A program made the position numbers and the translations under genes. A stretch of 64,000 nt of DNA, taken from assembly GCF_963681195.1 (NCBI RefSeq), contig NZ_OY808997.1:372001-436000 (forward strand). The letters are read 5' to 3'. The stretch is from Vibrio sp. 16. GTDB lineage: Bacteria; Pseudomonadota; Gammaproteobacteria; Enterobacterales; Vibrionaceae. Of this stretch, positions 21,060 through 60,710 are shown one piece after another (position 1 is the stretch's first letter; every line of letters begins with the position of its first letter). The notes below the pieces were generated by a model. The model did not search any database. It was not told the origin of the DNA and saw only the letters and a program-made list of their open reading frames with translations.

Positions 21060-21709
21060 AGACCACTTTGTCTTGGTTAGAGAAGGACTTCGTTTCCTTT
21101 TTCATCGTAAGCTCCAATCCCGCAATCTACAACCTACTTAAGCCATAGCACCGCATCGTAGCAGTCTTATTGCGCAAGTATGATTATACGTACAACAGTT
21201 ATCTTAGACGGAAACTGTGTGGTTTAAGCTAGTCAATGGAATGAGGTTTGAAGTGTAACAATGGAGATGAAAAAAAATATCGTGGTATAGCCGGGGGGAC
21301 TATACCACGGGTGCCAATGACACCTTCGCTTGCTGCCGGAGTGACGCTGGATGCGCCACCTCTGGAATTCTTGTCTTAAGGTCTCCCTCTCGACGTGATT
21401 AACTATAAATCCATGGCCTTTTTTTACTTATAAAATTAACGCCAGTATTACATAAGAAAAGCGACAAGTTGTTTAAGTTATTGAATTTAAATAATTAAAA
21501 GTCAATTCTGTCTGGTTTTTTTTGTTCTTGGTAATTCTGCTTCCTTTTTCATTTCTAGTTTTTAACGTTTTTGACGGCGCTTCTTTTAACGAAAATGACA
21601 TTTCCAAAAGTGCAAAGATTGATTTCAGACAAGAATTGTTACATTTGAAGGAAGTACTATTGGAAGCGTTAATAAAAATACTTTTCATTTGTATATAGCT
21701 GGCCTGTTT
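21060..21709. other. 650-bp intergenic region upstream of feoA
   Basis: No convincing protein gene. It contains a strong hairpin with a G-rich loop at 21281-21309, a second imperfect hairpin near 21340-21362, and an AT-rich stretch (about 21420-21700) that must hold the feoABC promoter. I could not find a convincing Fur box by eye. No clear T-tailed terminator follows the regulator gene. Confidence 0.6.
21281..21362 (+). ncRNA. candidate structured RNA element upstream of feoA
   Basis: A 10-bp perfect inverted repeat CGTGGTATAG (21281-21290) / CTATACCACG (21300-21309) closes a 9-base loop CCGGGGGGA. About 30 bases later an imperfect stem presents GGA in a small loop (CGC-TGGAT-GCG, flanked by GTG and CAC). 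Five GGA trinucleotides occur between 21263 and 21374, two of them in predicted loops, which recalls CsrA-binding RNAs. Strand and transcription are unknown; it might also be a protein-binding palindrome or repeated element. Confidence 0.35.
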
Positions 21710-55370: not shown

Positions 55371-56102
55371 TTAACCCATAGGTTTGATGATATCTAGGAT
55401 GTTTTCGGCGATTTTAGCGACATTTTCACCTTTATCGCCAACCAAAATGAGACTCACTTCGCCCATTGGTTCAATGATACCTACCATACCATCTTCCGCA
55501 AACTCAGATACGTCATTGGCGGCAATGCCTGTCAGAAACAGAGTCACTTTGCCTTTTTCGCCTCTAAACACCATATGCAGTGCATTGGACTCACCAAAAC
55601 CACAGTGATTTAAGTAATATACGTGGTAAGGGAAGTGCGCACTCAATGAATGAGAAAACGGCACCATTTTCGCGTTGATTTGCGAAGATTTGACTTGTTC
55701 GTCTAGATGATTCACGAACGGCTTTTCGTCAACAACATGCTTGATCGCTGTTGATGCTAAACTCGCTTGTGCAGGAGAAACAACGATGTTTCCCCAGTTA
55801 ACTTGTCCAACCAACAAGCCAGCGACAAAAGCAACTGATGCTGCCATTGCCATTGCTCGGCGGGCAAAATTAGGTCGAACGACATTATCTTCTTTAACAT
55901 TCGAGGTTTGATTGAACAAAATGCGATCAGCCAGATCCTCAGGGACATCAACATTCATCGCTTTAGCGATTTGAGCATCCAGATCTAAAATCTCATCGGC
56001 GAATTTAGCGTTGGATTCACTCTCTTTTATCGCGGCGTTGAGTTCGCTATCTCTGCATTTAGGGTCGGACATGATGCGGCGACGAAATTCTAAATCATCC
56101 AT
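55371..56102 (-). CDS. DUF3379-type single-pass membrane protein, putative anti-sigma factor
   Basis: 243 residues. A cytoplasmic N-terminal ~80 residues rich in charged helices (LEFRRRIMSDPKCRDSELNA), one membrane helix (~83-99, MAMAASVAFVAGLLVG), and a periplasmic C-terminal domain (~105-243) with HMVFRGEKGKVTLFLTGI. Topology and the 8-bp overlap with the upstream ECF sigma gene fit an anti-sigma factor. I see no HxxxCxxC zinc motif of ZAS proteins, so binding mode is unclear. Function is inference from context. Confidence 0.72.
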   Translation of the reverse strand: MDDLEFRRRIMSDPKCRDSELNAAIKESESNAKFADEILDLDAQIAKAMNVDVPEDLADRILFNQTSNVKEDNVVRPNFARRAMAMAASVAFVAGLLVGQVNWGNIVVSPAQASLASTAIKHVVDEKPFVNHLDEQVKSSQINAKMVPFSHSLSAHFPYHVYYLNHCGFGESNALHMVFRGEKGKVTLFLTGIAANDVSEFAEDGMVGIIEPMGEVSLILVGDKGENVAKIAENILDIIKPMG

Positions 56103-56658
56103 TATGCTGTCCTCTTTGGTTACTCTCTGGGTCGATCATCTCTTTTAGCTGATTGCGAGCTCTGAATAAGCGTGTCATCACGGTATTCTTATTAAGATCA
56201 AGAATCTCGCTGATCTCTTCACCGCTAAAACCCCCAACAACTTGAAGAAATAGTGGCTCTCGATAATCGGTATCAAGTTTCATAATTTGTGCCTGAATCC
56301 ACTCGGTCTGATGATGCGGGTCATCGCTGACCTTAGCATCGTTTCCGTGGTCATCGATATCAACCAGATCAAACTGCTTGCGCTCGAAGCGACGAGCGTT
56401 TTCTCTGCGTAATATGGTGATTAACCAAGATTTGGCGGCTTTCTCGTCTTGAAGACTATCGAGAGACTTCCACGCACGTAAACAGGTCTCTTGTACTAAA
56501 TCCTCCGAGATAGTGGGATCTTTGCACAACCAATACGCGTAGCGATAGAGGTCTCTGTGATAGGCTCTCACGAGCGCTTCATATTTTCTTTGTCTGTCCA
56601 TATCCGAGTTGACCGGATCGGAAGACTTTTTCTTTCCAAAAAAATTGAGAATCGACAC
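56095..56658 (-). CDS. ECF-type RNA polymerase sigma factor
   Basis: 187 residues from GTG 56658, chosen because GGAGG lies five bases upstream; the frame stays open 26 codons further to ATG 56736 but without such a site. Region 2 is ALVRAYHRDLYRYAYWLCKD with DLVQETCLRAWKSL, and region 4 is LFLQVVGGFSGEEISEILDL with MTRLFRARNQL. No region 1 or 3, as in ECF sigmas. Translationally coupled to the DUF3379 membrane protein. Target promoters unknown. Confidence 0.88.
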   Translation of the reverse strand: MSILNFFGKKKSSDPVNSDMDRQRKYEALVRAYHRDLYRYAYWLCKDPTISEDLVQETCLRAWKSLDSLQDEKAAKSWLITILRRENARRFERKQFDLVDIDDHGNDAKVSDDPHHQTEWIQAQIMKLDTDYREPLFLQVVGGFSGEEISEILDLNKNTVMTRLFRARNQLKEMIDPESNQRGQHNG

Positions 56659-56896
56659 AAGAGCCTCCCTAACTGCTCTGTGGATGAGTTTGCTGAACGT
56701 TTTTAACGTGCGTTCAACCTGTCTCGTTGGAATCAAAATCCAGCAAGCGATGGGTTACTGCTTCTATTTTATACAATGTGCGCCTTCTAGGAGCGCCTTC
56801 AACAATTTCGTTGCAACATAAATGCTATTGAGCTTTAGAAACTCACCTAAAATTGATCTATTTCAAAATCTACCGTCTCACAGCGGTTATAGTAAC

Positions 56897-57057
56897 ACCT
56901 GTCATCTAGTCAGTGTTTCACTGACATGTTGAGCAAGATGACACTTCCTTTTGAAGGCTGACTTTACTTTCTCCTAATCAGGAAACTGATTATTTCAATT
57001 GGCGTAAGTTAATTGCTTTATACATTCCGACCACACAGTTTTGTGTGGTTTTTTTTT
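56897..57057 (+). ncRNA. candidate small RNA with three stem-loops and orphan terminator
   Basis: A strong + strand terminator (57030-57057) follows no gene on that strand. Upstream are two more perfect 7-bp hairpins: GTCAGTG-TTT-CACTGAC (56909-56925) and TAATCAG-GAAA-CTGATTA (56975-56981 with 56986-56992). A TATAGT -10 (56888-56893) would start transcription near 56900, giving ~158 nt. A pyrimidine-rich segment TTTCTCCT (56968-56975) is complementary to the fadI ribosome-binding region. No known Vibrio RNA is recognised. It could also be an attenuated long leader of fadIJ. Confidence 0.55.
57030..57057 (+). terminator. Rho-independent terminator of the candidate small RNA
   Basis: Stem ACCACACA (57030-57037) with TGTGTGGT (57042-57049), loop GTTT, nine T (57049-57057). 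Confidence 0.9.
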
Positions 57058-57203: not shown

Positions 57204-57219
57204 TCAAACGATCGTTTGA
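57204..57219. promoter_or_regulatory. PsrA-type operator upstream of fadI
   Basis: TCAAACGATCGTTTGA is a perfect 16-bp palindrome matching the PsrA-type pattern (G/C)AAAC-N2-4-GTTT(G/C). PsrA is a TetR-family repressor of fatty-acid oxidation genes in several gammaproteobacteria, released by long-chain acyl ligands. It overlaps the -35 region of the fadI promoter. Confidence 0.72.
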
Positions 57220-57243
57220 TTGTGTTAACAATCTCGTTACAAT
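57216..57243 (+). promoter_or_regulatory. probable fadIJ promoter
   Basis: TTGATT (57216-57221), 16-base spacer, TACAAT (57238-57243). It is flanked by the PsrA-type palindrome and the FadR-type site, so both repressors would block RNA polymerase. Confidence 0.6.
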
Positions 57244-57244
57244 G

Positions 57245-57261
57245 ACGTGGTCAGACCTCTT
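57245..57261 (+). promoter_or_regulatory. FadR-type operator upstream of fadI
   Basis: ACGTGGTCAGACCTCTT matches the FadR core TGGTCNGACC fully. It covers the expected transcription start and lies 18 bp before the fadI ATG, consistent with repression relieved by long-chain acyl-CoA. Confidence 0.75.
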
Positions 57262-57279
57262 AATATCCAAGGAGAAACA

Positions 57280-58587
57280 ATGGGCAAGCAGGAAGTGAAA
57301 ACCCGCTCTGGTGAGCGCGTTGCAATTGTCGCTGGTTTGCGTACCCCTTTTGCGCGTCAAAGCACTGAGTTCAGCAAAGTGCCAGCTGTTGACCTAGGCA
57401 AAATGGTAGTAAGCGAAATGATGGCGCGGACAGAGATCGACCCAAAATTGATCGATCAAGTTGTGTTTGGTCAAGTGGTTCAAATGCCTGAAGCACCGAA
57501 TATCGCACGTGAAATTGTGCTCGGAACGGGCATGGACATTAACACTGATGCCTACAGCGTGACGCGAGCATGTGCAACGAGCTTTCAGTCTGCGGTCAAT
57601 GTTGCGGAAAGCATCATGTCTGGGACTATTGATGTCGGTATTGCTGGCGGGGCAGATTCTTCCTCGGTATTGCCTATTGGTGTCTCCAAAAAGTTGGCTG
57701 CGAACCTATTAGCACTGAGTAAAACCAAAACAGTTGGCCAAAAACTCAAGATTCTAAAAAGCCTCTCCCTGAAAGATTTAATGCCCGTTCCACCGGCGGT
57801 GGCTGAATACTCAACAGGCTTATCGATGGGCCAGACCGCAGAGCAAATGGCCAAATCACACGGCATTTCTCGTCAAGAGCAAGATGCTTTAGCGCACCGT
57901 TCTCACACGTTAGCGGCTCAGGCATGGCAAGAAGGCAAGATTGAAGGCGAGGTGATGACCGCGTTCCCAGAACCATATAAGAAGTGGATCTCGCAAGACA
58001 ACAATATTCGTTATGACTCGACGCTGGAAGGGTATGCGAAGTTGCGTCCGGCTTTTGATAGACAGTACGGCAGTGTGACCGCAGCAAACAGTACACCGCT
58101 GACTGATGGCGCCGCAGCAATCATGCTGATGCGTGAAGGGAAAGCAAAAGAGCTCGGCCTAGACATTATGGGCTATATCCGTTCTTACGCTTTTTCTGCG
58201 ATTGGCGTTGAAACGGATATGCTGATGGGGCCGTCATTCGCAACGCCTATGGCGCTAGAGCGAGCGGGAATTGAGCTTTCGGATCTTACCTTGATGGACA
58301 TGCATGAAGCCTTTGCTGCTCAAGCGCTTTCAAACGTGAAAATGTTTGCTAGCGATGCATTTGCACAACAACACCTTGGCCGCTCTAAAGCAATTGGTGA
58401 AATCGACATGGATAAGTTCAACGTCCTTGGCGGTTCTATCGCCTATGGCCACCCCTTCGCTGCAACGGGCGCACGAATGATTACCCAAACATTACGAGAG
58501 CTAAAACGCCGCGGTGGCGGTTTGGCGCTGAACACAGCGTGTGCGGCAGGTGGTCTTGGTGCAGCTATGATTTTGGAGGTTGAGTAA
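57280..58587 (+). CDS. fadI: 3-ketoacyl-CoA thiolase FadI
   Basis: Thiolase of the FadIJ beta-oxidation complex, cleaving 3-ketoacyl-CoA to acetyl-CoA. 435 residues from ATG 57280 ([20 protein letters not shown]), preceded by AAGGAG; the frame is open 11 codons earlier at a GTG but that lies in the FadR site. Catalytic Cys in [12 protein letters not shown], His in [11 protein letters not shown] and Cys in [11 protein letters not shown] are present. The stop shares one base with the fadJ start. Confidence 0.96.
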
Positions 58588-60710
58588 TGAGCGAGCAGAA
58601 AGCATTTAAGCTACACATTGATGAAAATGACTTCGCTTGGTTGGCGATAGACGTCCCAGGCGAAAAGATGAATACGCTTCAAGCGGCTTTTGCTGAAGAA
58701 ATGGAAGACGTGTTTGCTCAACTTGATGAGAAAAAATCCTCCATTAAAGGATTGATCGTACACTCATTGAAGCCAGACAATTTTGTCGCTGGCGCTGACG
58801 TTCGAATGTTAGATGCATGTACAACGGCAGCAGAAGCACAGGCATTGGCTGAGAAAGGCCAGCAAATGTTCCAACATCTTTCGGATTTGCCTTATCCCGT
58901 TGTTGCCGCGATCCACGGACCTTGTTTGGGTGGTGGTTTGGAGCTGGCACTCGCGTGTGACTACCGAGTATGTACTGACTCCGATAAAACTCGCCTAGGG
59001 CTGCCAGAAGTGCAGCTTGGATTACTGCCCGGTTCAGGTGGCACGCAACGTCTGCCTCGTTTGATTGGTTTACTGCCGTCGCTAGATTTGATCTTAACCG
59101 GTAAGCAGCTTCGCGCCAAGAAAGCGAAAAAGCTCGGTGTCGTAGATGCTGTAGTGCCTGAGACCATCTTGCTGGATGTGGCGAAAAGCTTTGTTGAAAA
59201 GAACGCGGGCAAAAGCAAAGGCAAGCGTAAAGTATCGACCAAAGAGAAACTTATCTCAAACACCGGTCTTGGACGTAAGGTGATCTTTGATCAAGCGGCA
59301 AAGAAAACATTCGAGAAAACTCGCGGAAACTACCCAGCCGCAGACGCCATCTTAGAAGTGATTCGCTACGGTTTAGAGAAAGGCTTCGAGCAGGGCCAGA
59401 AGAAAGAAGCTGAGCGTTTTGCTGAGCTTGTGATGACCTCTGAATCTAAGGCGCTACGTTCAATCTTCTTTGCAACAACAGAGATGAAAAAAGAGAACGG
59501 CAGTGACGCAGAGCCGTTATCTGTCAAGCGAGCGGCCGTATTAGGCGGTGGTTTGATGGGCGCGGGGATTAGCCATGTCAGCGTAGCTAAAGCGAAAGTG
59601 CCGGTGCGCATCAAAGATGTCTCAGAAGATGGGGTATTGAATGCGTTGAAGTACAACTACAAGTTGTTCGAAACTCAGCGCAAGCGCCGTATTATCTCGA
59701 AAGCTCAATTGCAATCGAAGATGTTACAGCTTTCTGGCGGGACAGATTTCACCAGCTTCAACCATACCGACATTGTGATCGAAGCGGTGTTCGAAGATCT
59801 CGACCTCAAGCAGAAAATGGTCGCAGATATCGAAGAGAATGCTAAAGATAGCACCATTTTCGCAACAAATACGTCGTCACTTCCAATCGGGCAGATTGCC
59901 GAGAAAGCGCAGCGACCTGAAAACGTTGTCGGCCTGCATTACTTCAGCCCAGTTGAAAAAATGCCACTGGTGGAAGTGATTCCGCACGAGGGAACATCGG
60001 ACGAAACGGTATCGACGGTTGTGGAATTTGCTCGCAAACAAGGCAAAACGCCAATTGTTGTCAAAGACTGCGCGGGTTTTTATGTCAACCGCATTCTTGC
60101 CCCTTACATGAACGAAGCGGCGCAAGTTTTGATGTCTGGTGAGCCGATTGGACACCTAGATAAAGCGCTGCTCAACTTCGGCTTCCCCGTTGGACCAATT
60201 ACTTTGCTTGACGAAGTCGGCGTTGATATTGGCGCGAAGATTATGCCTATCTTGGTCAATGAGCTTGGTGAGCGATTTAAAGGGCCAGACGTATTCGATA
60301 CGCTTTTGAATGATGGTCGTAAAGGGCGTAAAAGCGGTAAAGGTTTTTACACCTACAAGGGCAAAAAGAAGGAAGTCGACAAGTCTGTCTACAAATTGCT
60401 TGGACTGAGCCCAGAATCCAAGATGGCGCAAGAAGAGATGGCGATGCGATGTGTGCTACCTATGCTCAATGAAGCCGTTCGCTGTTTGGATGAAGGTATT
60501 ATTCGCAGCCCTCGTGACGGTGATATTGGTGCCATTTTTGGTATCGGATTCCCACCATTCTTGGGCGGTCCTTTCCGCTACATGGACCAAATCGGCGTGA
60601 AGAAACTGGTCGAGATCATGAATCAACACGCGGAGAAATACGGTGATCGATTTGCACCTTGCGATGGCCTACTGACGCGAGCAGGGCTAGATAAACCGTT
60701 CTACGAGTAA
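58587..60710 (+). CDS. fadJ: multifunctional enoyl-CoA hydratase/3-hydroxyacyl-CoA dehydrogenase FadJ
   Basis: Alpha subunit of the FadIJ complex. 707 residues: N-terminal crotonase domain (GADVRMLDA; oxyanion-hole [36 protein letters not shown]), a linker, and the NAD-binding hydroxyacyl-CoA dehydrogenase domain ([18 protein letters not shown]; catalytic His in [17 protein letters not shown]), then two C-terminal helical domains. FadJ rather than FadB from operon order thiolase-first. Confidence 0.96.

Follow-up and report, generated by a model that had tools for sequence, protein, structure and literature searches.

The region upstream of fadI in Vibrio sp. 16 carries a genuine small RNA gene, conserved as RNA, on the plus strand at 56900..57057 of the window (the 64,000-nucleotide stretch of DNA analysed here, to which all positions refer). 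We consider it probable that this is a stand-alone Hfq-type sRNA gene, about 158 nt long and equivalent to Vcr043 of Vibrio cholerae, and that its product is an FNR-activated regulator resembling FnrS. In brief, FNR would bind TTGATCTANTTCAA at a class II position and switch on the RNA under oxygen limitation, and the core CACTTCCT...TTTCTCCT would pair with the translation starts of electron-flow and redox genes (sdhC, grxA). The neighbouring fadI may be paired by the same core.

The initial annotation of this region described three perfect hairpins in series, the last one running into nine T, behind a TATAGT -10 box, and direct reading bears this out. The -10 box lies at 56888-56893. The 5' stem (56901..56942) pairs 56901-56907 with 56936-56942 and encloses an inner stem-loop at 56909-56925, formed by 56909-56915 and 56919-56925 (7 bp, loop TTT). 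The second hairpin, TAATCAG-GAAA-CTGATTA (56975..56992), was read directly, appears in the predicted fold and is nearly invariant. The intrinsic terminator (57029..57057) consists of a hairpin at 57029-57050 and nine T at 57049-57057, and is also reported by a consensus scan that found 5 terminator-like sites where 1.9 were expected. The fold adds a fourth hairpin, 56996-57015, that is missing from the earlier list, and its centroid leaves 56944-56974 unpaired. Its energy is -44.8 kcal/mol against a shuffle mean of -29.5 (z = -4.33), and none of 200 dinucleotide shuffles was as stable. Column counts delimit a near-invariant core at 56942..56979 with two candidate pairing blocks, CACTTCCT (56942-56949) and TTTCTCCT (56968-56975).

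The RNA boundaries are predicted from the limits of the conserved block and from the model match. The block starts at 56900-56901, 6-7 nt past the -10 box in all 110 loci compared, and stops with the T run. This gives a start at about 56900 and a predicted length, from start to terminator, of about 158-161 nt for this and the sister-species loci; counted one base past the T run, the gene spans 159 nt in Vibrio sp. 16 and 162 nt in the loci of V. mimicus and V. metoecus. No sizeable plus strand gene covers the sRNA, as had been noted, and only one frame of 40 aa runs across its end. These features support the proposal of a stand-alone transcript, about 158 nt long, that has a predicted promoter and terminator of its own. 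The consensus scan of the window did not list the sRNA promoter, which has a -10 box and no recognisable -35 hexamer and would thus fit an activated promoter.

The 110 loci, all of which contain the RNA, comprise 108 unique sequences, and 57 of these were retained as non-redundant for covariation analysis. Among the 108 unique relatives conservation falls at both ends of the RNA, so that the sRNA stands far above its flanks. The upstream box, the -10 box (TATA[GT]T in 108/108 by column counts) and most of 56900-57057 are highly conserved; variation is seen in the stem 1 loop, around 57020 and in the loop of the terminator. A check of stem covariance, which had been suggested earlier, was run on the 57-sequence alignment, in which 99.5% of cells are paired. 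Two-sided changes occur in 9 of the 32 pairs, and 4 of 500 shuffles had at least as many. The covariation score was 0.188, compared with 0.119 in the shuffles, none of which (0 of 500) attained the observed score. These changes all fall in the 5' stem, where they affect every one of the 7 inner pairs and 2 of the 7 outer ones. With almost no variation in the second hairpin and the terminator, neither gives a covariation signal, for or against.

Of 148 Vibrio genomes, 130 carry the sRNA gene by our count. This number derives from the 132 that a 501-base query matched, less two (G015 and G095) in which the model found no RNA. The model recheck covered five of the 132 matching genomes and all 16 non-matching ones, the remainder being judged by match positions that were verified in the 110 loci; one non-matching genome, G107, gave a marginal model match (E 0.0076). 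Divergent copies of the RNA are present in genomes G016, G088 and G067 (L132-L134, with 98.5, 60.6 and 41.8 bits), and the exact core was not found in the weaker genus matches L133-L135. Several genomes of the genus have no model match, so some of its lineages may have lost the RNA or replaced it. A model search of 247 genomes of the order, run under the tighter filtering that applies to large searches, found it in 15: 13 of the genus, one of another Vibrionaceae genus and one of another family. The last of these (L131, 32.9 bits) lacks the exact core motif and was set aside. The sRNA was not matched in the plasmid collection. Rfam gave nothing at the sRNA locus at gathering scores, and a relaxed Rfam search of the region (E up to 5) returned one chance match only.

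The RNA also contains a short reading frame, MLSKMTLPFEG (56926-56961, plus strand), that is open in many relatives and has exactly this translation in 37 of 110 loci, so we considered whether the RNA has a second function as the message for a micro-protein. The first codon is ATG in 59, GTG in 18 and TTG in 8 of the 110 loci, and AAG in 10, ACG in 4, GAG in 3 and CAG in 2. An extra A shifts the frame in V. cholerae-like sequences, and the nucleotides are constrained in any case. With the start codon lost in part of the loci and the frame broken in the V. cholerae-like ones, the micro-protein was rejected, and we regard a coding function as hardly credible.

The sRNA is flanked by fadI (57280..58587, plus strand, ATG at 57280; TIGR02446, 864.8 bits) and fadJ (58587..60710, plus strand; NF008363 and TIGR02440, both above cut-off) on one side. 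On the other side, on the minus strand, lie a divergent gene for a VC1045-like ECF-type sigma factor (56095..56690; NF009170, 305 bits, sigma-70 regions 2 and 4) and a gene for a DUF3379 protein (55371..56102; PF11859). It should be noted that the start codon of the sigma factor gene is uncertain, and that the part scanned was 56095-56601. The order is thus a fadL-like gene, the DUF3379 gene, the ECF sigma factor gene (minus strand), the sRNA (plus strand), fadI and fadJ. By likeness of reading frames, V. mimicus likewise has DUF3379-like and sigma factor genes on one side and fadI and fadJ on the other, so that the arrangement sigma factor gene, sRNA, fadI is present in both. We take VC1046 of V. 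cholerae to be fadI.

Han and Lory place Vcr043, an RNA of about 160 nt, between VC1045 and VC1046 (PMC8545128). In that work it was seen on a Northern blot and is transcribed opposite to the sigma factor gene VC1045, with starts 25 bp apart. The RNA described here fits Vcr043, because its place, strand, predicted length and divergence from a sigma factor gene match; the identification goes through the V. mimicus and V. metoecus loci and the described location. The two share the strand, the place beside a VC1045-like sigma factor gene, the length of about 160 nt and divergent, partly overlapping promoters. They differ in that this is another species, and neither an FNR-type box nor pairing with fadI is mentioned for Vcr043 in the accessible parts of the literature. 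The sRNA is therefore not undescribed, as the initial annotation had it.

Three studies report on Vcr043. It was found in chimeras with rpoS, an rpoS fusion was raised about 3-fold, pairing with the rpoS leader was proposed, and its levels were similar through growth in LB (PMC8545128). An Hfq RIL-seq study includes it among the sRNAs with tested targets, and assigns roles in electron transport to grxA, vc0036 and sdhC, three of the four that were validated (PMC9732341). The same study, in 2022, termed it uncharacterized. Stable Vcr043 intermediates have been described in the context of RNase E (PMC7398697). Its uptake in the Hfq data set supports the earlier suggestion of an Hfq-linked RNA (PMC9732341); for the locus in Vibrio sp. 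16, Hfq binding and target regulation would follow by analogy with what is reported for V. cholerae.

Upstream of the sRNA lies an FNR-type box, TTGATCTATTTCAA (56853..56866, plus strand), centred at about -40.5/-41.5 from the predicted start. A box centred there occupies the class II activator position, which the box thus has if the RNA starts at 56900-56901 as predicted. In 107 of 110 loci the sequence reads TTGATCTANTTCAA, then 21 nt, then TATA[GT]T, and the remaining 3 retain TTGATCT in that position but match less well in the right arm. The sequence of the spacer that separates the box from the -10 varies. The locus from the other Vibrionaceae genus (L130) retains both the RNA and an exact copy of the box, flanked by a fadL-like gene and fadI; no sigma factor gene was seen there between the fadL-like gene and the RNA, indicating that the box goes with the RNA. 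If the sigma factor gene starts 25 bp from the sRNA start, as in V. cholerae, the box would lie inside the transcribed start of that gene.

The consensus right half-site of FNR is ATCAA. The box has TTCAA, with T at the deviating position in 107 of the 108 unique sequences, and this departure makes a different protein of the CRP/FNR family possible. The same sRNA could then be activated by CRP, or by another member of the family, and would report carbon supply or some other signal. The core of the box, TGATCTA..TCA, resembles the CRP consensus, its position would suit FNR and CRP alike, and in related bacteria fatty-acid genes are under CRP control. The bases that distinguish a CRP site are the G in TGTGA and the C in TCACA; here T and A stand in their place in every one of the 108 unique sequences, which argues against CRP. 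The other places where the pattern occurs also speak against it, half of them preceding oxygen-related genes, fnr itself included. We therefore consider CRP or another relative of FNR an improbable activator.

These places were found with TTGATNTANNTCAA, which has 7 forward and 8 reverse matches in the genome of Vibrio sp. 16, whereas the backward control has 0 and 3, respectively. Besides the sRNA, it occurs at 10 genomic places. Five of them precede fnr, arcA, cydA (cut by the end of the locus), grcA and a di-haem peroxidase-like gene (whose best family is below its cut-off). The genes fnr, arcA, cydA and grcA are classical FNR targets. The other five places are before a dipeptidase gene, before zwf, within a gene, overlapping the start of a called frame, and with no gene start found nearby; none of these five precedes a recognised FNR target, which weighs against the FNR reading. 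A second pattern, TTGATNNNNATCAA, was dropped as too loose, with matches at 30 places, several of those inspected being inside genes.

The box suggests that FNR switches the sRNA on, and thus that the RNA is an oxygen-responsive regulator of vibrios. The similar levels of Vcr043 through growth in LB imply that FNR would not be an all-or-none switch. In the open-access literature we found no paper linking Vcr043 to FNR, and no report, in the accessible portions, of the signal that controls it. The term FNR is absent from the main texts of PMC8545128, PMC7398697 and PMC9732341, and occurs in PMC9438474 in other contexts only. As far as our searches show, a near-invariant FNR-type box at activator spacing before the Vcr043 counterpart is new to the literature searched.

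The initial annotation had offered a leader attenuator of fadIJ as an alternative, a cis element governing read-through into these genes. The strand is the same and the terminator lies upstream of fadI, as such an element would have it. Evidence against it comes from fadI, which has a conserved promoter-like sequence of its own downstream of the RNA (57216..57257, plus strand; TTGATT at 57216-57221, TACAAT at 57238-57243), identified by consensus scan and conservation. An operator-like site, GGTCAGACC, lies at 57249-57257 on the plus strand. This site belongs to a palindrome, GGTCNGACC, that is present in 67 of 68 relatives, mostly about 30 nt ahead of the fadI ATG, and that we take to be FadR-like. 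In addition, the distance from the end of the RNA to the ATG of fadI varies from 104 to 338 nt among relatives. Vcr043 is moreover known as a separate transcript of about 160 nt (PMC8545128). An attenuator is thus very unlikely.

The candidate pairing blocks of the stand-alone sRNA were examined in a target screen of 355 gene starts, which a simple script had called in the window and in a 400-kb genome sample. Among these, the predicted duplex with sdhC has an energy of -26.0 kcal/mol (top 1.1%), that with fadI -25.4 kcal/mol (5th of 355) and that with grxA -20.1 kcal/mol (top 11% only). In this genome grxA carries TAGGAGAAAG over its Shine-Dalgarno sequence, a 10-nt match reached by 2 of the 355 genes; since grxA is a supported target in V. 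cholerae, it is plausible that TTTCTCCT genuinely pairs with targets. Target starts were read in 25 of 27 loci for sdhC and in 27 of 28 for grxA.

The complementarity of TTTCTCCT (56968-56975) to AGGAGAAA (57270..57277) at the fadI Shine-Dalgarno sequence, from which action on fadI was first proposed, was confirmed in position. An 8-nt match of this kind is ordinary, occurring in 32 of the 355 genes, and the accompanying caution that Shine-Dalgarno complementarity can be chance was right. What lends the proposal some support is a second block, AGGAAGTG, in codons 4-6 of fadI (57290..57297), which is complementary to 56942-56949. The two blocks of 8 nt each are colinear and in the right order for antiparallel pairing. 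They give fadI a two-block score of 16, the top score, reached by 2 of the 355 genes, fadI included; sdhC scores 13 (reached by 5% of genes) and grxA has a single block. Starts of fadI were read in 68 of the 110 loci (a different, earlier reading gave 60/99). AGGAGAAA is kept in 57 of these 68 relatives, AGGAAGT in 63, both together in 54 and the full AGGAAGTG in 29.

The main job of the RNA might then be repression of its neighbour fadI through the two blocks around the start codon. In favour of this are the shared top score, the duplex energy, the presence of both blocks in 54 of 68 relatives and codon 4, which is CAG in 67 of 68. Also, the accessible text of PMC9732341 names only three of the four validated Vcr043 targets. 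On the other hand, fadI is absent from the main text of that paper, the score was devised after the pairing had been seen, and AGGAGAAA is an ordinary Shine-Dalgarno sequence. Codon 2, GGC, lies outside the blocks and is about equally fixed (66/68), so a general constraint on the start may explain the conservation. A dedicated fadI repressor is in our view somewhat unlikely. As the score was devised post hoc and start regions are otherwise constrained, we hold fadI as a candidate target only. The broader suggestion of action on fatty-acid genes is otherwise unsupported by the targets named in the accessible texts, three of the four having electron-transport roles, with rpoS in addition (PMC9732341, PMC8545128).

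FnrS of enterobacteria is activated by FNR, depends on Hfq and acts at the starts of aerobic and redox genes, and the likeness that we propose for the sRNA is in these traits. By eye, a ACTTCCTT stretch is seen both in the sRNA and in an FnrS-like locus (L111). A difference is that the Rfam model of FnrS (RF01796) matched none of 25 Vibrio genomes, a search whose filters can lose weak matches. Local alignment of the window RNA to L111 was no better than for shuffles, and homology was rejected. When L111 was searched for in E. coli genomes, a single partial match came up, and it was not used. We therefore propose that the physiological role of the sRNA may resemble that of FnrS, with no sign of homology.

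The window encodes one other sRNA, TfoR (21271-21368, minus strand; RF02100, 105.8 bits), which is the sole Rfam match in the window at the families' own thresholds and lies about 36 kb from the sRNA. The two are of unrelated families. Both act on rpoS in V. cholerae, where TfoR lowers and Vcr043 raises rpoS (PMC8545128).

The alignment of 57 sequences and the model built here could supply the missing Rfam family. The FNR-type box offers a direct and cheap test of the signal behind Vcr043, and FNR control would fit its electron-transport targets. We tentatively speculate, as a possibility only, that Vcr043 is the independently evolved FnrS of vibrios. In low oxygen FNR would turn the RNA on and, while bound, shut off the divergent ECF sigma factor gene; the RNA would lower sdhC, grxA and fadI and raise RpoS. 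If that reading is true, a single site would take this small locus out of aerobic lipid burning and into a state prepared for low oxygen and stress. Control by FNR, if true, would suggest that vibrios evolved an FnrS-like RNA of their own, and the sRNA would do for them what FnrS does for enterobacteria.
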